The notes under the pieces were generated by a model. The model was not told the DNA's origin. It saw only the letters and a list, made by a program, of their open reading frames with translations, and searched no databases. The position numbers and the translations under genes are program-made. Positions 6,870 to 17,201 of a DNA stretch of 23,155 bases are shown one piece after another (position 1 is the first letter of the stretch; each line of letters begins with the position of its first letter). The DNA comes from a virus: the IMG/VR virus record IMGVR_UViG_3300030202_003123, positions 1,277-24,431 of that record; one strand, 5' to 3'.

Positions 6870-8816
6870 TTAATATGATGATAATACAAAGTTGGATGAA
6901 ACCGAAAACAGTTCTTTCATCCCACCTGAATCTGTATTAGTATCTGTTGATACTTTCACTGTAGCTATATAACCTTTTATTCCACTTACTTGATTACCAA
7001 ATATGATCTCTCCAGGTCTAGCAACGCTAGAACTAATAAGGTTAGCTACGTATTTATTTTCTTTTCTATTAAACCCTGCTCTATAAGTTACACCATTGGT
7101 AGTATATTTACCTTCTTCATAACTTTTAACAGAGTTAGTGGTATCTTGATATTGATTACCAGCACTGTATGCTAACGGGTTTGTAAATGGTACGTTAGGA
7201 TCAATACCTTCAAAATCAGATTTAAACGAATCTACCTCCCATCCATTTCCACCTTCGTAAGCAACTGTATTAAAGTTTTTAACTACAGTAGGATTAGGAT
7301 TAAAAATAAAGGTTATACTTGTTTCAGCTGGAGTTGTAGCTCCATAAAACTTGCCTCTATTGTTAGCAGTAGTGTTATCGTAATGTTCGTATATAGTATT
7401 TTTATAAAAAGTGTAAAACTTATTTTTCAAACTATCTAACTGGTTAGGTTTGTAAGTATAAAAACTTGTCCAACCTGAAGCACCTTCGTCAAAAGATACT
7501 GTAGTAAAAGTAGAAGCATCAGTTGATATATTTGCTGGGGTTGTTTGTAAAGACACTACGTAGTTTTGATTGTGAATATCGTAACCACCTAGAGCTTTAT
7601 CTTTTCTATATGTAATAAATATAATCTCATCGTCATTAGCTGCTATAGTTATACTAGGACTAACCTCAACCGTACATGTGGCGCCAGCGTCAGTAACCTT
7701 AGTTACGATGCTAGTAGTAGAAGTTGTAACCTCAGTTGTAGAATTATATAAAGAGATTTGAGCACCTACTTCAATATCACAACATGAGTCACTTGTAACA
7801 GAAACTGATGAGTAAGGTCCACCAGCAGCTGTTGCTAAATCTTTGTATACTGTAGTTGGTTTATACTCATTGTCTATAGTTGCTAAGTAATCTCTGAAGT
7901 AATCTCTCATACCGTAAGCTGAGATTTCAGTTATACCATCTCTTGATAATCTCAGTACTGCAGCTCTGTTTCTATCAATGAAATACTTCCTATATCCAAA
8001 GATTGCAAATGATTCGGGATTTTTACTTATTCCATATTCTCCTAAGTAAGGAACTAGTTGACCTATAAAACTAGGTAAACCTAAAGCTTCGTTAGCTCCT
8101 TGCTCTCCAGAATATACAGTTGTTTTGTTTATTAAAGCTTTACTTACTTTGTTTTCTTGGAATATTATTAAGTTGGTGTCTTCACTATACAGTTTTTGAA
8201 TACTACCGTTTATAGGTTCAGCATCTTTCATTATAGCTTCGCTAACAGAAAACACGTTAGTTTCGTTATAACCAGTTCTTATATTATAAACTCCAGAAAA
8301 TATTAAACTATGAGATCTATTTATTTTATCTCTATTATCATTTACAGCATAAGCTCTAATACCTAGATCTACAATACTGTTATTAAATCCACCTTTTATC
8401 CTAGCTTCTTCTACATAATAATTTTGAGTGCCAGACTTTGGAGTTCCTGATGATCCACCAGAACCAAAAGGAAATGGTTTAGTTGTTAATGTTAAAGTAC
8501 AATTATTACCTCCTCCGTTCACTGTGAATGTGTTACCAGAAACAATATTTGTTCCAGGATTAACAATAGTAACAGCTGTTATTGCGCCTGCTACAGCCGT
8601 AGTGTCTACTATTAAACCTCCACCAGCACCTGTAACCGTTGTTGTTGCAACGTCTGTTGCGCTACTATATCCAGTATTAACACCACTTATAGCAACGCTA
8701 AAAGCGCCATATGGATTCCATGGTAAACCAGGCCAACTAGGATCTGTATCTCCATTTTTAACAACTTTTTTTAACCAAAAAGAATTAAAATAATTTACCT
8801 CTATTGTTGCTGCCAT
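6870..8816 (-). CDS. Tail structural protein, crAss/uvMED-like, 648 residues
   Basis: Residues 134-320 and 405-424 carry segments I associate with a conserved marine and crAss-like tail protein: YVEEARIKGGFNNS, then GSIQKLYSEDTNLIIFQENK, then GYRKYFIDRNRAAVLRLSRD, then ALGGYDIHNQNYVVSLQ. The composition is beta-rich. Two regions look inserted. Residues 39-112 form a divergent copy of the repeated Gly-rich beta cassette. Residues 336-404 are a Thr/Val/Ser-rich beta segment between the DNEYKPTTVYKD and RKDKALGGYD parts of the core. The start codon overlaps the stop of the 1311-residue gene by one base (TAATG), which implies translational coupling. It probably forms part of the distal tail with that protein. 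The exact position in the tail is not deducible from sequence. Confidence 0.75.
   Translation of the reverse strand: MAATIEVNYFNSFWLKKVVKNGDTDPSWPGLPWNPYGAFSVAISGVNTGYSSATDVATTTVTGAGGGLIVDTTAVAGAITAVTIVNPGTNIVSGNTFTVNGGGNNCTLTLTTKPFPFGSGGSSGTPKSGTQNYYVEEARIKGGFNNSIVDLGIRAYAVNDNRDKINRSHSLIFSGVYNIRTGYNETNVFSVSEAIMKDAEPINGSIQKLYSEDTNLIIFQENKVSKALINKTTVYSGEQGANEALGLPSFIGQLVPYLGEYGISKNPESFAIFGYRKYFIDRNRAAVLRLSRDGITEISAYGMRDYFRDYLATIDNEYKPTTVYKDLATAAGGPYSSVSVTSDSCCDIEVGAQISLYNSTTEVTTSTTSIVTKVTDAGATCTVEVSPSITIAANDDEIIFITYRKDKALGGYDIHNQNYVVSLQTTPANISTDASTFTTVSFDEGASGWTSFYTYKPNQLDSLKNKFYTFYKNTIYEHYDNTTANNRGKFYGATTPAETSITFIFNPNPTVVKNFNTVAYEGGNGWEVDSFKSDFEGIDPNVPFTNPLAYSAGNQYQDTTNSVKSYEEGKYTTNGVTYRAGFNRKENKYVANLISSSVARPGEIIFGNQVSGIKGYIATVKVSTDTNTDSGGMKELFSVSSNFVLSSY
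8481..8702 (-). repeat. Divergent beta cassette copy in the 648-residue tail protein
   Basis: This stretch encodes about residues 39-112. It has GAITAVTIVNPGTNIVSGNT, which keeps the strand-PG-turn-strand pattern, with GTNIVSGN in place of the Gly-x-Gly-Tyr-x-x-Gly-Asp core. Confidence 0.5.
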
Positions 8817-11800
8817 TATGTTATCGTTATTGTTATTACACTAGACTTTTTACTTAAACCACCACCATCAACTACTTTTAATCTGACAGTGTAAACGCCT
8901 ACAGATAGACCAGCTATTGCATCTAACGCAGCATTTTGAGTTGTACCGTCTGGAGTTAAAGTGAAGTATCCAGTAGTACTAACATCAACACCACCTAATT
9001 TTACACTAACTATAGACCAATTAAGTTCAAGTCCTTTTAAAGCTGTAGTTCCACTACCATTAGTAGCTACAGCATTAAATACATTGCCACCAGCAGCACT
9101 TGTGCCACTGCCTGAACCTCCTAAGAAAGGTGCAGGTTGTGTAAATGTAGGTGCTACGTTCAACATTCTGAAAGGATTACCTTGTAGTGGTAGATCCATA
9201 GATATTGTTGTTCCGTCTAAAGCCCACGTACTACTCTTAACAACCACCCTCACAACAAAAGTCCAATCATGATGTGAATTAGAAGTTGCTCCATAGTATA
9301 AACCGGTATTAGATGTTATCTTAAACAGCCCAGCGCCACTTCCTGATGCCGTAGCAAACGAACTAACCCAGTCTACACCTCTTCTATCTAGAGCTGATAT
9401 TAATGTAGTAGATAGCATCTCTGTTGCTAAGCTTGCTCCACCAGCGTTATATGCTGTAAAATCTCCAGTAACATTTGTAGTGCTACCTTGGATTAAAGTG
9501 CCTTCTGTTACTAAAGAAACAACGTCTCCACCTGAACCATTTTTCAAAGTGCTTGGAGTATTTGGATCTGAACCACCACCACTTACAATAGCTGTATTTA
9601 ATGTAGATATTAAACCTGCTGTTGATGTTTCCCAATAGATGTCTAGTTTAGATTCTAGTGGCTCTGTTTCATATACAGTAAGTATAGGATACATATTATT
9701 AAAGTCAGAGGCCTTGAGAGTTATTATAGCAGGTCTAGAACCTCCATAAGTTCCCGTGGCTAATGTTATAGTATCTCCAGGAATAAAACCTTCACCAGGA
9801 TCTGAAACAGTTAACACTGTTATAACTCCACCTGCAACAGTAAAATTTAATTTTAGACCTTCACCATTGGAACTACTTGTAGTAACACCTGCGGTTACTC
9901 CAACTTCTTGATTAACATAACTGGTATTCGTTGCTCCATCAAAGTTTTGTGTTATACTGTCTAGTAAATCCACTCCATTTGTAACTGTTCCATAACCTCT
10001 TTTATTAACGGTTAAAGTAAAAGTAGCATTGTTATCTCCAGCTAGTATTTTACAATTTGTTATAGTCATTGGATATGAAGCATTAATTAAATCCCAACCT
10101 TCACCTTCATCGTCTATAGAAATTGAGTTAGGAATACCAGCACCAGTAATACTCCAAACAGCTACTTGCAGTCCAGTTCCTGCTCCTACAGGTGCGTCGC
10201 TTGGAAACTCAACAGCTATATTTCTCGAACCAGCAACATAATTTAATCCACCAGATAAACCACCACATTGAAACCATAACTTACCTGCGTAAGGACTAGG
10301 TCCTGTTTCACCAACAGTAAAATCAGAAGTGTTTATTCTAGCAATGTAAGGGTTGTCTTCATAATTATAAAACACTGGAGCAACATTAAAAGGAACTATA
10401 GCAGATGGATCCCATAAACCTAAATCTTGACCTGTACCTATAGTTGTTACTAAATCAGTATTAGTGCCTGGATACCATTGCTGAGTTGTAGATCCTGAGT
10501 TGTTGTTAACCCTAAGTGACATTTTAATACTAGCATTTGTAACTTGACTACCTGAATCTAAGTCCCTAACTCGATCTCTAAGAGATAAAAATCTTTCTCC
10601 TTCTTCAGAATATGGATCAACAGTAAATAGTTCACCGTCAGTGTTTGTAAATTTGTAATAATCTGGATCTTCAGAAAAACTAGGTCTACCACTTCTAAAT
10701 ATATTTTGATTAGGACCTACTAAACTTAAGTCTCTAGGTATTTTATTTATATTGTCACTATATAAAGCTATGTGAGCTATAGGTTCTCCAGCTTCGGCAG
10801 GTAGTGGATATTTCATATCACCATTTATGTATCCATTTAGTATACCTGGAAAATAAACATTATAATAATCTTGCTGTTGTTGCTTCACAACTATCTTATA
10901 GCTATACCAACCCAGTGGATTAGTAGTTGCATCGTATAATCCTGGAGCTCCTGTAGCTGAAGACTTATCAGAAAGTATTTGATCTATAAAAGTAACTTTT
11001 AAAGAATCACCAGGCCAAGTATCTGACGATGTAAGTAAATCTTCAGCATTAGTATTTGGATAAGTTGAAAAAGGAGATTCTTTAAATGGATGGAAAAGAG
11101 TTGAACCTTTCAAAGTAGTAGAACTAGAACTAGTATCTATTTCTGAAAGTAGTGTTGTTGATTGTCTACCATACCTGTCTGATAATACAACTCCTACTTG
11201 ATAGTTCCTATTTTGCTTTAAAGTATGGTTTTGATATTCTTTTTCTAATGTTAAAGTATCTTTAGTATCAGCTGATACGTTGTAGTTCAGTGCTATTGGA
11301 GGAGTGGGTTTATCAATAAAGTTGCCATATATAACTCTATTCGCACTAACTTCTTGGGCTAAAGCCCTGACAGGTACTTGATCAAAAACTCTAGTCAATT
11401 CTTTATCAGGTAGTACTTTATAAGGTTTTAATGATTGATATTCGTATTCATAATTTAAGTTAGGTGATAAGTTAAATACATCTACAGAAACCGTGTCTAC
11501 AACTCTTATTGATGTTTCACCCGCTAACTTCATAAGAATATCCATTTCAACAATATTTAAATCTGAACCTACTTGACTCCAAGCATTACCACTAGGCGTA
11601 GGTATTTGCAAAAGAATATTATTTATTTTATTCTCCATGAAAGATACCTCAGTGCTTTTAAACGTTCTATCTTCATCATCACCTATAAAATAACCATCTT
11701 GCTTAGGAACAAAACAAGCTTGAGTAAATGGTGCTATTAAAGAATATTCGTCGTCATCAAATTTAAATCTATAACTAAAACTAGCAAATTTATCTTTTAG

Positions 11801-12751
11801 GTAATCTTCATCACCAGGCCAGTTTTTATTATATAAAGGATTGCTTGTACCGTCTGGCAAAGTTTCACTAACAACATCTTGCATCGTACTTACAATGCCC
11901 GTAACAATAGTAACTTGACATTGTTGAGTTATGGTTCCAGACACTGGATTATTTCTAGGAATTAATTGAATCACATCGCCATTAGCATAACCTGTGCCTG
12001 GCTCGGATATAGAAACAGCTGTTACTGCACTAGCAGCAGTATTATCTATGTTTACTGTCATACCACTACCTGAACCACTTATAGTAGTTGTCTTACAACT
12101 AGGATCAACAACTGTAAAACCACTACCGACACTACCATCTCCTGCGCCCGCTTGAGTAATAGTTAAACCAACTACTTCTTCTTTATATAGTAATATAGGT
12201 TGATAAGGATATATTTTAGCTACAGATATATTATCTTCAGATTGATAATAAGTGTTGTCAGCTATAGCGGTTGTTAAGTTTATTTTTCTAGGTTGGTTTC
12301 TATTATCAGTCCAAAACAATAAATCTTCTATTAAGTTAACACCATACACTTCTTGTGTTTTAGAAAAATTAAGAAACCTACCACTAACAATTACTTGAGA
12401 TTGACCTGTTAAAACGTGATGAACACCTATAGCATGTAAAGAATCTGCACTAGCAAAGTTAGATAAATTATCTCCAGATGTATCAACAAAGTTAGTCATA
12501 AAGACTATTATCCTGTCATTTACAACATCCATATATTTACCTATAATACTAATGTTACAGTCAGCATAATCAGCACCCCAAGTATTTAGCGCTAAGTTAC
12601 CTAACACGTTCTCTAAAGCTCCTACATCATCTCCTTCAGATTTACTAATCATCACGTTAAAAGCCTCTCTATACTCACCAGAAGGCACTAGTCGCGCGTC
12701 TAAATCCCTGTTCATTCGAGATTTGAGGAAATTGTTTCTTACTTCAGCCAT
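8816..12751 (-). CDS. Large tail protein, crAss-like muzzle candidate, 1311 residues
   Basis: The N-terminus (residues 6-52) has the NNFLKSRMNRDLDARLVPSG start followed by a Glu/Asp-Val-Gly-Ala-Glu-Asn segment, which I recognise as a signature of the large tail protein of crAss-like and related marine phages, where the counterpart forms the tail muzzle. Further core motifs include NRVIYGNFIDKP (471-482) and QVGVVLSDRYGRQS (518-531). Beta-rich cassettes with a G-x-G-[YFW] core lie at about 195-283, 840-913 and 934-1018. The C-terminal 115 residues begin with NVAPTF and end in a YTVRLKVVDGGGLS strand typical of cadherin-like or Ig-like folds. There are 4 bases to the preceding gene and a 1-base overlap with the next. 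The muzzle role is inferred from family resemblance. Many Gly/Ser/Thr linkers suggest a surface-exposed multi-domain fibre-like part. Confidence 0.75.
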   Translation of the reverse strand: MAEVRNNFLKSRMNRDLDARLVPSGEYREAFNVMISKSEGDDVGALENVLGNLALNTWGADYADCNISIIGKYMDVVNDRIIVFMTNFVDTSGDNLSNFASADSLHAIGVHHVLTGQSQVIVSGRFLNFSKTQEVYGVNLIEDLLFWTDNRNQPRKINLTTAIADNTYYQSEDNISVAKIYPYQPILLYKEEVVGLTITQAGAGDGSVGSGFTVVDPSCKTTTISGSGSGMTVNIDNTAASAVTAVSISEPGTGYANGDVIQLIPRNNPVSGTITQQCQVTIVTGIVSTMQDVVSETLPDGTSNPLYNKNWPGDEDYLKDKFASFSYRFKFDDDEYSLIAPFTQACFVPKQDGYFIGDDEDRTFKSTEVSFMENKINNILLQIPTPSGNAWSQVGSDLNIVEMDILMKLAGETSIRVVDTVSVDVFNLSPNLNYEYEYQSLKPYKVLPDKELTRVFDQVPVRALAQEVSANRVIYGNFIDKPTPPIALNYNVSADTKDTLTLEKEYQNHTLKQNRNYQVGVVLSDRYGRQSTTLLSEIDTSSSSTTLKGSTLFHPFKESPFSTYPNTNAEDLLTSSDTWPGDSLKVTFIDQILSDKSSATGAPGLYDATTNPLGWYSYKIVVKQQQQDYYNVYFPGILNGYINGDMKYPLPAEAGEPIAHIALYSDNINKIPRDLSLVGPNQNIFRSGRPSFSEDPDYYKFTNTDGELFTVDPYSEEGERFLSLRDRVRDLDSGSQVTNASIKMSLRVNNNSGSTTQQWYPGTNTDLVTTIGTGQDLGLWDPSAIVPFNVAPVFYNYEDNPYIARINTSDFTVGETGPSPYAGKLWFQCGGLSGGLNYVAGSRNIAVEFPSDAPVGAGTGLQVAVWSITGAGIPNSISIDDEGEGWDLINASYPMTITNCKILAGDNNATFTLTVNKRGYGTVTNGVDLLDSITQNFDGATNTSYVNQEVGVTAGVTTSSSNGEGLKLNFTVAGGVITVLTVSDPGEGFIPGDTITLATGTYGGSRPAIITLKASDFNNMYPILTVYETEPLESKLDIYWETSTAGLISTLNTAIVSGGGSDPNTPSTLKNGSGGDVVSLVTEGTLIQGSTTNVTGDFTAYNAGGASLATEMLSTTLISALDRRGVDWVSSFATASGSGAGLFKITSNTGLYYGATSNSHHDWTFVVRVVVKSSTWALDGTTISMDLPLQGNPFRMLNVAPTFTQPAPFLGGSGSGTSAAGGNVFNAVATNGSGTTALKGLELNWSIVSVKLGGVDVSTTGYFTLTPDGTTQNAALDAIAGLSVGVYTVRLKVVDGGGLSKKSSVITITIT
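9698..9952 (-). repeat. Beta cassette copy C in the 1311-residue tail protein
   Basis: This stretch encodes residues 934-1018 with the core DPGEGFIPGD. It is the close partner of the cassette in the 347-residue connector protein. Confidence 0.8.
10013..10234 (-). repeat. Divergent beta cassette copy B in the 1311-residue tail protein
   Basis: This stretch encodes about residues 840-913. The core is DEGEGWDLIN, with the Gly-x-Gly-aromatic step kept but the GD lost. It is preceded by GTGLQVAVWSITGAG in place of the usual GLK-x-x-x-TV-x-GG strand. Placement in the family is by pattern only. Confidence 0.5.
11903..12169 (-). repeat. Beta cassette copy A in the 1311-residue tail protein
   Basis: This stretch encodes about residues 195-283 with SGSGMTVNIDNTAASAVTAV and the core EPGTGYANGDVIQL. 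It lies between the conserved ILLYKEEVVG and VVSETLPDGTS parts of the tail core, consistent with an inserted domain. Confidence 0.65.
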
Positions 12752-12755
12752 TCAA

Positions 12756-13928
12756 TTAGTGTTTAATCCATTTAGATTTACCTCTCATTATTTGAGTAAA
12801 TTCTTCTAACTTAATATTTGACAATCTTATTTTAGCATTTCTTAAAGCAGCTCTTCTATCGACTTTATATCTTCTAACAACATATTCAGGTACGTTAACT
12901 CTACCAGCTAATATAGAGTAAGCTATATGCATATAAATAGCTTCTTCAGCCATCTTAGGTATACGCATATCATAGTCTACAGATAAACCATCAGAAACAT
13001 ATTCTAATAATATTAATCTACCTTTTAAATTACTACTAAAAGAAAATTTACCTTCTCTATAGTTTATAGTAAACCAACCATTCTTCTGTGAAGTTTCTGG
13101 TTCTAATCCATATCTTTGACCATAAGCGACTTTATCCCATGTCCAACCTAGTATATTAGCGTTGTAAAAGTCTAAGTCTATATTACCAGATATTAACTTA
13201 TCATTAGCAGTATCCCACCTTTGTTCTATAATAGAAGGTCCTTGTTCGTTTTCACCTAGACTGTTTTGAGTTGGTATACCACTACCATCCGAGTTTGGTA
13301 CAGGTATTTCATAAGGATTACCTGTTAATGTTGTTGGGTATATAATATGTTTAACACCAAAGTCATCGATCCAAGACATTTGTACGTAGTTAACGTAGTC
13401 TTGAGGAATAATAACAGATAAACTATCTGGTATAGTTAACTCTTGAGATTTAATACTTCTTAATGTATCATAGCTAAACTCCTGCAATCCACGCTTAGCG
13501 TGAAACATTACATCAGTTCTTTTAACATGTGGTATTAATTTTCCAGCTCCAACATATGCTACTAAAAAGTTATTAATAACGTCAGCCATAGAAATATATT
13601 CATACCCACCGTAGTTAGCTTCCATAGCTAGTGTAGTAAGTTGAATCTTAACTTTATCACCAGCACCTAAAGCAACTACTGAAATAGTGTTATTGTTTAC
13701 TCCAACAGAGTATTGAGCTGCACCGATAGGAGCAGGTGGAATAACTTCTGTATACTTAACATAACCAGCGCCTGTATCTACATATACCTCCACATTGGTA
13801 TTAGTTGTTGAAGTAGTGCCTACTAGTATAGTATCACCAGTCCATACAAAATTTGTTTGTGCTGCTGTAGCTGTAATTATCTGTTGACCAGCATAATATT
13901 GTTGATTAGTTTCTGTTAGTAGTCCCAT
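12756..13928 (-). CDS. Tail ring/connector protein, crAss-like, 390 residues
   Basis: The C-terminal 65 residues (IPKMAEEAIYMHIAYSILAG at 323-342, LRNAKIRLSNIKLEEF at 362-377, then RGKSKWIKH ending at 390) form a pattern I associate with the conserved tail ring protein of crAss-like phages. The middle (about 105-200) is a mixed helical/beta region with YISMADVINNFLVAYVG and the QDYVNYVQMSW strand. The N-terminal 100 residues are a Thr/Val/Gly-rich beta region that looks like an added domain and includes EVIPPAPIGAAQYS at 61-74, closely matching SVIPPQPIG in the 205-residue head protein. The gene lies between another connector-like gene and the large tail gene, with 7- and 4-base gaps. The proposed role is a neck or tail ring joining the portal to the distal tail. 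Confidence 0.8.
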   Translation of the reverse strand: MGLLTETNQQYYAGQQIITATAAQTNFVWTGDTILVGTTSTTNTNVEVYVDTGAGYVKYTEVIPPAPIGAAQYSVGVNNNTISVVALGAGDKVKIQLTTLAMEANYGGYEYISMADVINNFLVAYVGAGKLIPHVKRTDVMFHAKRGLQEFSYDTLRSIKSQELTIPDSLSVIIPQDYVNYVQMSWIDDFGVKHIIYPTTLTGNPYEIPVPNSDGSGIPTQNSLGENEQGPSIIEQRWDTANDKLISGNIDLDFYNANILGWTWDKVAYGQRYGLEPETSQKNGWFTINYREGKFSFSSNLKGRLILLEYVSDGLSVDYDMRIPKMAEEAIYMHIAYSILAGRVNVPEYVVRRYKVDRRAALRNAKIRLSNIKLEEFTQIMRGKSKWIKH

Positions 13929-13935
13929 GTTTTAT

Positions 13936-14979
13936 TTAGCTTTTTTCTAATACTTCATCTTGTTGTACCATGCTAGCAGCAGTTTGTACAATTTGTGGAT
14001 CTCTTATAACAACGCCACTATACATTAGTATTTGTAGTATTAGATTAGTTTGTTCTGTTGGGTGTAGTTCAAATTGAGTAGAACCATAAGTAGATCCAGA
14101 ATTTAAATCTGCAGCTGCTAAAGTAACTATTTGGTTGGTAGCACCACCAAAAGTAACTCTATCAAATTCAACTTGATCACCTACAGAAAAACCAGTACCT
14201 ACATCAGTTACAGTAAGTACTGTTGTCACACCACCAACTACAGTCATACTCATTTTTAAACCTGTGCCAGAACCGCTTGTTGTTACTCCAGCCGAAACAC
14301 CTGGTTCTAGATTAGTATAAGAAGTATTTGTAGCACCTGAAAATTGAGTAGTTATACTCGTTAATAAACTGCTGTTTATGTTTAAAGATCCTGAATTGTA
14401 AGTAGTACTATCATAAATATATTGCCCTAAGCTACCTACTGAGTAACCCCATCTAGGATCAACTGGAGCTTTTATATAGTTACATCTAACATTAGATGTT
14501 ATAGAACTAGGATGCACTACTATTTGACTAGGCGCAGCAGATGGTGCACCTGTAGTTTCTCCAATGTAAACTGGGTAAGAAGTTGTTGGCTTTGTTAATG
14601 GAGAGTTGTTTAGTAAAGTATACTCTGCCCTATTAACTTTTTGAATACCTATTGAAGGTATAACTGAACTACCGTCTAATTTTATAGATCCTATACGATG
14701 AACATCTGTTGGTAGTGTAAAATGAGGATTAACATAAGTGCATAAATTACTTGTGTTAAATATATCTATTTTCTCTTCTAAGTTTGCTACACGATTAGCA
14801 TATTCGCTATCGTTTTGTGGTATACGTAATTGTTGATTTAACTCTTCAAAATACGCTTCAAATATTTCTCTTTGTACTTGCGTGCCTAGAGTGTTAAATT
14901 CGTCTGGTGTTATATATCCTCTCTGCTCTTTGTTTAAGATATATAGCACTGTTTTATAAACTGTATTTACGTTTACCAT
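13936..14979 (-). CDS. Head-tail connector/ring protein with inserted beta cassette, 347 residues
   Basis: The N-terminal 75 residues are helical (TVYKTVLYILNKEQRGYITP, then QREIFEAYFEELNQ), followed by a beta core with LPTDVHRIGSIKLDG and KAPVDPRWGY (170-179). The C-terminus resumes with TQFELHPTEQTNLILQILMY (301-320). In relatives I recall, the WGY strand and the FELH segment are close together. Here about 85 residues (211-293) of Gly/Thr-rich beta cassette lie between them, flanked by short Ser/Gly linkers (STTYNSGS, SGSTYGS). The start ATG follows an A/T-only leader immediately after the terminator at 14997-15026, so this gene opens the tail module. The role as a neck ring protein is inferred from position next to the 390-residue ring protein and the remembered family pattern. 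Confidence 0.75.
   Translation of the reverse strand: MVNVNTVYKTVLYILNKEQRGYITPDEFNTLGTQVQREIFEAYFEELNQQLRIPQNDSEYANRVANLEEKIDIFNTSNLCTYVNPHFTLPTDVHRIGSIKLDGSSVIPSIGIQKVNRAEYTLLNNSPLTKPTTSYPVYIGETTGAPSAAPSQIVVHPSSITSNVRCNYIKAPVDPRWGYSVGSLGQYIYDSTTYNSGSLNINSSLLTSITTQFSGATNTSYTNLEPGVSAGVTTSGSGTGLKMSMTVVGGVTTVLTVTDVGTGFSVGDQVEFDRVTFGGATNQIVTLAAADLNSGSTYGSTQFELHPTEQTNLILQILMYSGVVIRDPQIVQTAASMVQQDEVLEKS
14101..14349 (-). repeat. Beta cassette copy in the 347-residue connector protein
   Basis: This stretch encodes residues 211-293 and aligns by hand with residues 934-1018 of the 1311-residue tail protein at about 49 of 85 positions. Shared blocks are GATNTSY, AGVTTS, GLK, TVLTV, GF-x-x-GD and a final TL-x-A-x-D-x-N. 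It is the clearest pair of the family in this window. Confidence 0.8.
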
Positions 14980-15858: not shown

Positions 15859-16476
15859 TTACTTTCCGCTAATAGCTTTTAGTGAACCGGAACTAACACT
15901 AACGCCTGGCGGTAGTGGACGTAAATTAACATCTAGACCGGGGTTTTGATATAATTCTAAAACAGCTCGGTCAAACACTTCTGCTACATTTGCGCTATTG
16001 TTAGCTGTTACTCCTTCCACTCCTAACTCCCATTTTCTGCGAGCACCTGGTTGTATTTGTGCTATTGAAATTGTACCAAAATCACCAATAGGTTGAGGTG
16101 GAATAACACTAGTAATCTGTCCAGTTCGTGGTACAACCACATATACTGTAGATCCTTCTGCATTTAACATGTTTGCTGTAACTGTAAAACCAATACTACC
16201 TGTAAAATTAGTAGTATTTCCAGCTATACTTAATACATCTCCCACTGAGTAACCTGAACCAGCTGTGGTTATTTCAACTTGAGTCATAGCTGTTCCTCCA
16301 CCAGCAATTGTAACTGTTGCTTTAGCACCGCTACCTGAACCACCAGTTATAGGTAATCTCGTAACAACACCATCAGCAACCCACACCATAGCTGTTACAT
16401 CTAAATCTAAAGGACCAAGTAATGTTTGTCCAGCGAGTGAACTACTATCAAGTGGTATTATAATTCCGTTTTGCAT
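15859..16476 (-). CDS. Putative head-associated (auxiliary capsid or head fibre) protein, 205 residues
   Basis: The N-terminus (residues 1-40) is a beta segment starting MQNGIIIPLDSSSLAG. Residues 47-105 are a copy of the Gly-x-Gly-Tyr beta cassette. Residues 108-150 hold SVIPPQPIGDFGTISI, a motif nearly repeated in the 390-residue ring protein. The C-terminal 45 residues have a helix ending in YQNPG (176-180), followed by a Pro-rich tail. The helix-then-PG pattern also ends the two small genes upstream (101 and 114 residues), suggesting the three share a fold. Position shortly after the capsid gene argues for a capsid-surface, vertex or head-fibre protein. The leader AATTTAAAAATAAAATTATG has no Shine-Dalgarno sequence. 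I know no family name for it. Confidence 0.7.
   Translation of the reverse strand: MQNGIIIPLDSSSLAGQTLLGPLDLDVTAMVWVADGVVTRLPITGGSGSGAKATVTIAGGGTAMTQVEITTAGSGYSVGDVLSIAGNTTNFTGSIGFTVTANMLNAEGSTVYVVVPRTGQITSVIPPQPIGDFGTISIAQIQPGARRKWELGVEGVTANNSANVAEVFDRAVLELYQNPGLDVNLRPLPPGVSVSSGSLKAISGK
16162..16338 (-). repeat. Beta cassette copy in the 205-residue head protein
   Basis: This stretch encodes about residues 47-105 with SGSGAKATVTIAGGG, QVEITTAGSGYSVGDVLSI and a trailing FTVTANMLN that parallels the L-x-A-x-D-x-N ending of the other copies. Confidence 0.65.
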
Positions 16477-16486
16477 AATTTTATTT

Positions 16487-16831
16487 TTAAATTGTCAATA
16501 ATGGTGCTGCAATAGGTAAACCAATACCATCTTCAGTTTTAAGGTAAAAATTTTTACCTAAAACCGTTGAAGCTTTTACAATTCCACCTGGTTGTGAATT
16601 TACTCTTTTTACAAGCTGCCACAGAGCATCGGATTGAGCTTGGGTAGGAAGAGATTGAAAACCTAAACTAACAGTAAAGTCACCATCTCCAGCTGATACA
16701 ACAGTAGAAGCGTAATTATAGTGAAATATAAATCCGTTGATTCTAAAGTTGTAAACTAACTTGTACACGTTGCTGACGTTTAAATGGACACTTCTATTAG
16801 CGTCTAATTCAAACTCTATGAAGTTTGCCAT
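16487..16831 (-). CDS. Putative small head protein, 114 residues
   Basis: It is a small beta-rich protein (IEFELDANRSVHLNVSNVYK, YNFRINGFIFHYNY) followed by a helix (QAQSDALWQLVKRVNSQPGG, about 73-92) and a final strand region. The helix ends with a PG turn as in the neighbouring 101- and 205-residue proteins. No known domain is recognised. It lies 10 bases before the 205-residue gene and 64 bases after the 101-residue gene. The gap to the latter contains a strong terminator hairpin, so this gene may depend on read-through or on a promoter I cannot identify. The A-rich leader GCAAATAAAATTATG matches other leaders here. An auxiliary capsid role is inferred from position only. Confidence 0.7.
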   Translation of the reverse strand: MANFIEFELDANRSVHLNVSNVYKLVYNFRINGFIFHYNYASTVVSAGDGDFTVSLGFQSLPTQAQSDALWQLVKRVNSQPGGIVKASTVLGKNFYLKTEDGIGLPIAAPLLTI

Positions 16832-16859
16832 AATTTTATTTGCTTTTAAATGTTAATAA

Positions 16860-16883
16860 AAGATCCCACCGAAGCGGGATCTT
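16860..16883 (-). terminator. Rho-independent terminator with cUUCGg loop after the 101-residue gene
   Basis: On the minus strand AAGATCCCGC pairs with GTGGGATCTT (10 pairs, one G-T) around a UUCG tetraloop closed by C-G, an exceptionally stable loop type. TTTTATTAAC follows. It starts 12 bases past the stop of the 101-residue gene. Confidence 0.8.
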
Positions 16884-16895
16884 ACTTTATTTTAA

Positions 16896-17201
16896 TTAAC
16901 TGTGAGATTGAACACAATCAGAAACCGCGTAAGTAGAAGTATCAATTGATACAAGTTCACCTGGGTTTTGTTGTGCTTCTCTAAGAGCATCAACTACTAG
17001 TTTAATAAAAGTTGGTACTGCAGCTCCAACAGCAGCATGAGTCAAAGTAATAATTTGATTCTTGTCAGCAACCATAGCGTAAGTAATTACGGTAGAAGTA
17101 GATCCTCCTGTAACTGCTACTATGTTGTCTGTTGGAATTGGTTTTGTAGTGTTTTCTGATCCTGTTCCAGAACCAGCTACCGTCACATAAATATAGCTCA
17201 T
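16896..17201 (-). CDS. Putative small head protein, 101 residues
   Basis: This is the first gene after the major capsid gene. The protein is short and beta-rich (MSYIYVTVAGSGTGSENTTK, VITYAMVADKNQIITLTHAA) with one helix at about 65-78 (FIKLVVDALREAQQNPGE) ending in a PG turn, then VSIDTSTYAVSD and an unusual CVQSHS end. No known domain is recognised. Hairpin terminators lie on both sides (17228-17249 and 16860-16883), which isolates it as a short unit and fits an abundant capsid-decorating or cement protein expressed with, or shortly after, the capsid protein. That role is inference. The leader TTTTAAAATAGAAATTATG lacks a Shine-Dalgarno sequence. Confidence 0.7.
   Translation of the reverse strand: MSYIYVTVAGSGTGSENTTKPIPTDNIVAVTGGSTSTVITYAMVADKNQIITLTHAAVGAAVPTFIKLVVDALREAQQNPGELVSIDTSTYAVSDCVQSHS

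Follow-up and report, generated by a model that had tools for sequence, protein, structure and literature searches.

Why should a tail-ring protein and a far larger tail-tip protein of one marine crAss-like virus carry a similar segment of some 90 residues? This question is raised by a 23,155-nucleotide stretch of viral DNA (IMG/VR record IMGVR_UViG_3300030202_003123, positions 1,277 to 24,431), hereafter the window, which covers the structural genes of a virus record 24.4 kb long. The segment, which we call the cassette, lies in a 347-residue protein related to a distal ring protein of the tail barrel and in a 1311-residue protein that is part of the tail-tip muzzle. We found that the cassette is dispensable, that it occurs at two sites of the ring protein, and that it has been gained, lost and replaced among phages with nearly identical ring bodies. 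Mobility of the domain is confirmed, in a stronger form than a preliminary description of the sequence had claimed; the recent intragenomic copying proposed in that description is not supported. The features at issue are the following (AF2, AlphaFold2; pLDDT, predicted local distance difference test; comparison loci are labelled with L and a number):

13936..14979, minus strand: tail-barrel ring protein, 347 aa, relative of phicrAss001 ring protein 4/5 gp34 (AF2 model match; profile match)
14095..14355, minus strand: cassette copy at site B of the ring protein (residues 209-295), following the WGY strand and preceding the FELH helix (sequence match; model pLDDT blocks 92-96 over residues 201-300)
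14704..14709, minus strand: ring site A, between residues 91 and 92, empty in the window (cassette in L063 and L076; different insert of about 80 aa in 30 others)
8816..12751, minus strand: N-terminal part of the muzzle, 1311 aa (Pfam crAss_MUZ over residues 9-211, 38.2 bits against a cut-off of 27)
9695..9955, minus strand: cassette copy in the muzzle (residues 933-1019; sequence match; aligned in the window and L003 only, of 26 muzzles)

Presence and replacement of the cassette

Residues 205-294 of the ring protein and 929-1019 of the muzzle protein are identical at 53 of 91 positions with one gap (BLASTP with composition adjustment, E 3e-24), a match that lies far above chance. The preliminary description placed the two copies correctly (14101-14349 and 9698-9952), and its motifs (GATNTSY, AGVTTS and TVLTV) and WGY/FELHP flanks are right, as read from the sequence itself. 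Its term "near-duplicate" is too strong, as BLASTN gives no alignment between the two copies and their codon-aligned DNA identity is 60% (43% at third positions).

Among 96 distinct ring homologues (116 rows of the ring host tree reduced at 97% identity, rows with more than 35% gaps being left out), 29 carry a cassette at site B, two carry it at the other site (L063 and L076), 21 have a different insert elsewhere and 44 have none. The cassette is absent from 65 of the 96, in keeping with the mobile and dispensable insert proposed in the preliminary description and not with a constant part of every connector homologue. When site-B state is mapped on the host tree, which is a quick tree, 11 changes are needed, at least seven of them forced by starred branches. 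Site A is likewise a fixed position: each of the 32 proteins with a large insert at this site, two with the cassette and 30 with another insert (counted before the 97% redundancy cut), has it in one and the same loop, which follows residue 91. The other site-A insert (L125, L101 and others) is about 80 residues long and of beta type, and had no Pfam match in the two full proteins tested; comparison did not support its being either the cassette or the N-terminal domain of the neighbouring 390-residue protein.

Ring-body identity is a poor predictor of cassette identity (Spearman 0.34) across 435 pairs, drawn from the 30 ring proteins in which site B holds exactly one cassette followed by no fewer than 20 residues. 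For the 23 pairs whose ring bodies are at least 90% identical, median cassette identity is 0.47 (range 0.31-1.00), and cassettes 34-46% identical are found in ring bodies 97-99% identical. In terms of synonymous distance (dS), L016 and L019 differ by 0.09 in the ring body and by 1.03 in the cassette, while L003 and L005 show the reverse pattern (ring body 0.58, cassette 0.07). Because dS shifts at the cassette in both directions relative to the ring body, cassettes are replaced wholesale, probably by homologous recombination in conserved flanking sequence.

DNA profiles display a divergent or absent block between nearly identical flanks. For example, L023 and L020 form a mosaic in which the ring is 88-100% identical on both sides of a cassette that is 45-63% identical, and the empty L044 matches the filled L019 at 93-100% upstream, with one junction block at 71%, and at 85-100% downstream. 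The residues next to the cassette vary along with it: several empty alleles read WAYTTGS, and several filled ones WGYY. The exchanged tract therefore extends slightly past the domain, which is what homologous recombination in the flanks would be expected to produce.

If the cassette were an ordinary insert diverging rapidly in place under diversifying selection, with no swapping, it should be more variable than the ring body at a given distance, and this is usually the case. However, dS changes about tenfold at the cassette, upwards as well as downwards, and empty and filled alleles occur in near-identical genes. Moreover, closely related cassettes are under purifying selection (ratio of nonsynonymous to synonymous distance, dN/dS, 0.07-0.31 in most such pairs), and their variety is therefore ascribed to exchange. 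Fast evolution in place was rejected on dS reversals such as that of L003 and L005, and we consider it extremely improbable.

Origin of the ring and muzzle copies

The cassette tree (104 matches, 75 after dropping rows more than 95% identical or contained) groups the muzzle copies of the window and L003 (support 100/98), and places both with the ring copies of the window and L004 (100/99), the window ring copy joining that of L004 weakly. The L003 ring copy lies elsewhere, in a group supported at 95/85, though the L003 ring body is 82-98% identical to that of the window. The window muzzle copy matches the L003 muzzle copy at 63 of 91 positions and the window ring copy at 51 of 88. It belongs to a site where the cassette aligns in two of 26 muzzles (window and L003), and the nearest muzzles (L038, L053 and L071) lack it there. 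We infer that the ring and muzzle copies of the window descend from a common ancestor that is younger than most of the other ring copies.

How recent this ancestor could be is a separate matter. Copying within the immediate lineage of the window, from ring to muzzle or the reverse, would fit the finding that, of 30 muzzle cassettes, the window muzzle copy is the best match for the window ring copy. It would also fit the finding that, over 11 genomes, ring and muzzle cassettes of one genome resemble each other somewhat more than permuted pairs do (p 0.0004, or 0.0036 when the window is set aside and 0.0068 when L003 is set aside as well; kinship of the genomes is uncorrected in all three values). 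The two window copies are not sisters in the tree, the muzzle copy standing with that of L003, although an approximately unbiased (AU) test does not reject forced sisterhood (p 0.176). However, the two copies are separated by a dS of about 1.5, in addition to their low DNA identity and lack of a BLASTN match, and the L003 muzzle copy is nearer to the window muzzle copy than is the in-genome ring copy. A recent duplication in the window genome was rejected on DNA identity and dS, and recent copying in this lineage appears very unlikely. Thus, of the preliminary proposal, copying within a genome is compatible with the own-genome excess, but its recent timing is unsupported.

Ring and muzzle might instead have taken up similar cassettes independently from a pool shared with other phages, with no direct copy between them. 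Cassettes clearly move between genomes, and the tree intermingles ring and muzzle types, forcing at least 4-5 changes; such a pool would explain less readily the own-genome excess, or why the muzzle copy at 933-1019 has been found only alongside ring cassettes that belong to its clade. We regard this alternative as possible, if on the unlikely side. An ancestral copy from ring to muzzle is a plausible, if unproven, event, the AU tests not being decisive, and in the simplest history it would have preceded the split of the window and L003 and been followed by replacement of the L003 ring cassette.

Host proteins and neighbouring genes

The AF2 model of the 347-residue protein (50 homologues as input) has a pLDDT of 85. 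Its best match in the PDB is a chain of the phicrAss001 tail barrel, 7qoj_E (Z 13.2 over 202 residues, root-mean-square deviation 5.7), named "Ring protein 4/5 gp34" in its record, whereas other phage tail adaptors score Z 9.7 and below. The model contains the ring fold of gp34, namely three conserved helices and a beta-sandwich. Among six crAss001 proteins, gp34 is the sole match of a cassette-free ring profile (E 1.1e-8), R1, R2 and R3 not being matched; the hhalign match of the ring profile to the single gp34 sequence is weak (23%), and a PDB sequence search with the ring profiles gave nothing useful. Modelled fold and profile together identify the protein as the relative of the distal tail-barrel ring gp34 (ring 4/5) of phicrAss001.

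The 1311-residue protein and the product of the next gene are two parts of a split tail-tip muzzle, because crAss_MUZ and crAss_MUZ_C both score above cut-off. According to the phicrAss001 study (PMC10172136), ring 5 (gp34) binds the muzzle, so that the ring 4/5 protein is in contact with it. By homology, the ring and muzzle cassettes would therefore probably occupy adjoining parts of the distal tail. The preliminary statement that the two host proteins are otherwise unrelated is correct by sequence, but overlooks this contact. The remaining genes and cassette copies are the following:

6870..8816, minus strand: C-terminal part of the muzzle, 648 aa, encoded by a gene of its own (Pfam crAss_MUZ_C, 32.3 bits against a cut-off of 27)
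12756..13928, minus strand: 390-aa protein, the second of connector type (homologue of phi38:1 gp096; phrog_13977)
15859..16476, minus strand: 205-aa protein between the capsid and ring genes (open reading frame list; library search)
11903..12133, minus strand: second, divergent muzzle cassette (residues 207-283 of the 1311-aa protein; cassette profile)
8472..8702, minus strand: cassette in the second muzzle protein (residues 39-115 of the 648-aa protein; cassette profile)
16159..16386, minus strand: cassette in the 205-aa protein (residues 31-106; BLAST; cassette profile)

The window thus holds five cassette copies, two of which figured in the preliminary description. The three further copies are weaker, with E-values of 5e-7 to 8e-5 against the ring protein in direct pairwise BLAST without composition adjustment; the cassette profile was iterated on these same loci, so that its own E-values are in-sample.

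The host proteins of the cassettes correspond to gp34 and gp44 of phicrAss001, and the study of that phage names insertions as a source of variation in muzzle length (PMC10172136). In contrast with the window, phicrAss001 has no cassette in its rings or muzzle, and its muzzle is a single polypeptide, whereas the window divides it between two genes (1311 and 648 aa), the 648-residue gene overlapping the stop of the other by one base. This two-gene layout (6870-12751) is common, the muzzle being split in 68 and fused in five of 73 distinct muzzles with both parts. The L107 and L151 muzzles and the second muzzle gene of L106 have frames broken into two open reading frames in single contigs, possibly through sequencing errors.

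The nearest cultured relative found is the Cellulophaga phage phi38:1 (Pervagoviridae, Callevirus; filed without Crassvirales). Its gp093-gp097 are homologous to the capsid, 256-residue, ring, 390-residue and muzzle genes, in the same order, but no cassette is present in its ring protein gp095 (232 aa) or in its muzzle gp097, the 1324-aa product of one gene. Between the capsid and 256-residue genes, the window has three genes (101, 114 and 205 aa; 15859-17201) where phi38:1 has none. Relatives of the 390-residue protein in L091 and L030 hold a cassette in that protein. Its N-terminal domain (about 100 codons) is variable, with 104 residues in the window and 15 in L034 and L048, and the DNA downstream of the ring gene is divergent in some near-identical pairs (L018/L019 and L021/L019).

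Domain family and possible role

Modelled alone, with 69 of the 78 cassette fragments at hand as input, the ring cassette is compact and mostly beta (pLDDT 92.3), and is thus predicted to be an all-beta domain of about 90 residues that folds confidently by itself. The consensus across 69 copies shows near-invariant glycines and the pattern G-x-G-Y-x-x-G-D-x-I-T-I. Foldseek gave no convincing match to the PDB (best E 3.8), which is no proof of a new fold, and a VIA structure comparison with 85 chains gave none (best Z 2.0). The PDB sequence search with the cassette profile returned mostly antibody chains and T4 gp18, none convincing (best E 0.016). Pfam and NCBIfam likewise yielded nothing convincing, with no Pfam family at its curated cut-off. 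Predicted viral structures resembling the cassette are mostly virion proteins of marine phages or cyanophages among the 50 listed, and one of 176 matches has E below 0.001. At E up to 0.01, the 69 copies match 22 families in all, among them phrog_6005 ("virion structural protein"; 48 copies) and a baseplate wedge family (29 copies).

Copies also occur in cyanophages, with four in tandem in S-TIM4 ORF108 (residues 1852-2145) and one each in ORF105 and gp8. The window ring cassette found no phage record by tblastn, whereas another cassette (L155) found 56 cyanophage-named records among the matches listed (E 5e-5 to 8e-3); a genome contig scan with the window cassette gave 203 pattern matches and no relative, and a literature search found no description of this ring/muzzle cassette. 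The cyanophage hosts, annotated "YadA domain-containing structural protein" (S-TIM4 ORF108, Syn19_095), differ in belonging to Kyanoviridae (T4-like), in being large and fibre-like, and in carrying tandem arrays instead of a single insert. S-TIM4 ORF108 (L171:20210-26920) is also described (PMC6224464) as strongly mutated in a host-adaptation experiment, recombination being suggested; this lead was not used as evidence. The cassette is one member of an accessory-domain family that plugs into fixed loop sites of virion proteins, its hosts being the distal ring, the muzzle and the 205-residue protein in the window, and the homologue of the 390-residue protein in relatives.

The immunoglobulin (Ig)-like domains of bacteriophages, reportedly treated by Fraser et al. 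in 2006, offer the closest parallel in behaviour. They too are small beta domains that recur in a wide range of unrelated virion proteins, come and go, move horizontally and are mostly of unknown function, and their variable presence in virion proteins is found for the cassette as well. The cassette differs in having neither an Ig family match in Pfam nor a PDB fold match, and in being an internal in-frame insertion at fixed loops, with wholesale replacement measured at one site. In behaviour, then, it works like the promiscuous phage Ig-like domains, while the missing PDB match is compatible with an Ig fold as well as with another.

The cassette would most likely be an outward accessory domain whose exchange alters surface contact at the distal tail. 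It would face outward there and bind host surface glycans or another virion part, the least secure step of the scheme, and swapping it would retune that contact. Domain I of the T4 tail sheath gp18 (PF22639, Gp18_dom_I) is the parallel for such a domain, but also points to another role, in which the cassette would dock or retract the virus's own fibres or stabilise the tail. The domain is described (PMC3004832) as an outward insertion that binds the baseplate and the retracted long fibres. The cassette may, like it, be an insertion domain that protrudes from a tail, and they have in common the motif G-x-x-Y-x-V-G-D-x-I, within 25 columns aligned by hhalign (probability 84.6%); 11 of the 69 cassettes match PF22639 weakly (best E 0.0057), the match of the 205-residue protein being under the curated cut-off. 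However, the rest of the domain does not align, gp18 forms a contractile sheath, and free variation of the cassette between near-identical rings would be odd for a domain with a conserved partner. We consider fibre docking or tail stabilisation rather unlikely.

Taken as a whole, a swappable accessory-domain family, exchanged by recombination in its flanks, copied from ring to muzzle in an ancestor and binding outward, is the reading that we consider likely. Several observations weigh against it. The muzzle cassette of the same genome ranks 1, 3, 3, 4, 4, 7, 16, 19, 20, 23 and 24 of 30 in the 11 genomes, five of them at 16th or worse. The cassette tree spans 91 columns and has several long branches, with 29 of 72 inner branches open, and under the AU tests a clade uniting the ring copies of the window, L003 and L004 is not rejected (p 0.19), any more than is the sisterhood of the two window copies given above. 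The cassette-bearing crAss-like loci are all metagenomic contigs, and the two isolates checked, phi38:1 and crAss001, have no cassette in ring or muzzle. The broader idea that an unrecognised virion domain, possibly of new fold, is a common plug-in currency of marine phages, housed by crAss-like ring and muzzle proteins as well as by baseplate and fibre-like proteins of cyanophages, and swapped between near-identical phages by homologous recombination at fixed sockets to change distal-tail binding, we put forward as a doubtful possibility.

Ring proteins are usually seen as conserved plumbing. Here, loops of the ring serve as sockets, and what they hold is exchanged more quickly than the ring itself diverges; the tail-tip muzzle, which touches the ring in a solved relative, has the module too. 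If the domain binds the host or a fibre, its exchange would account for differences in contact behaviour between phages whose tails are nearly alike, and, if the plug-in reading is true, would provide a second route to host-contact variation beside tail fibres. As the family spans two very different groups of marine phages, a single structure would help to annotate many "virion structural proteins". Virus tails appear, in this respect, to be built partly from exchangeable modules.

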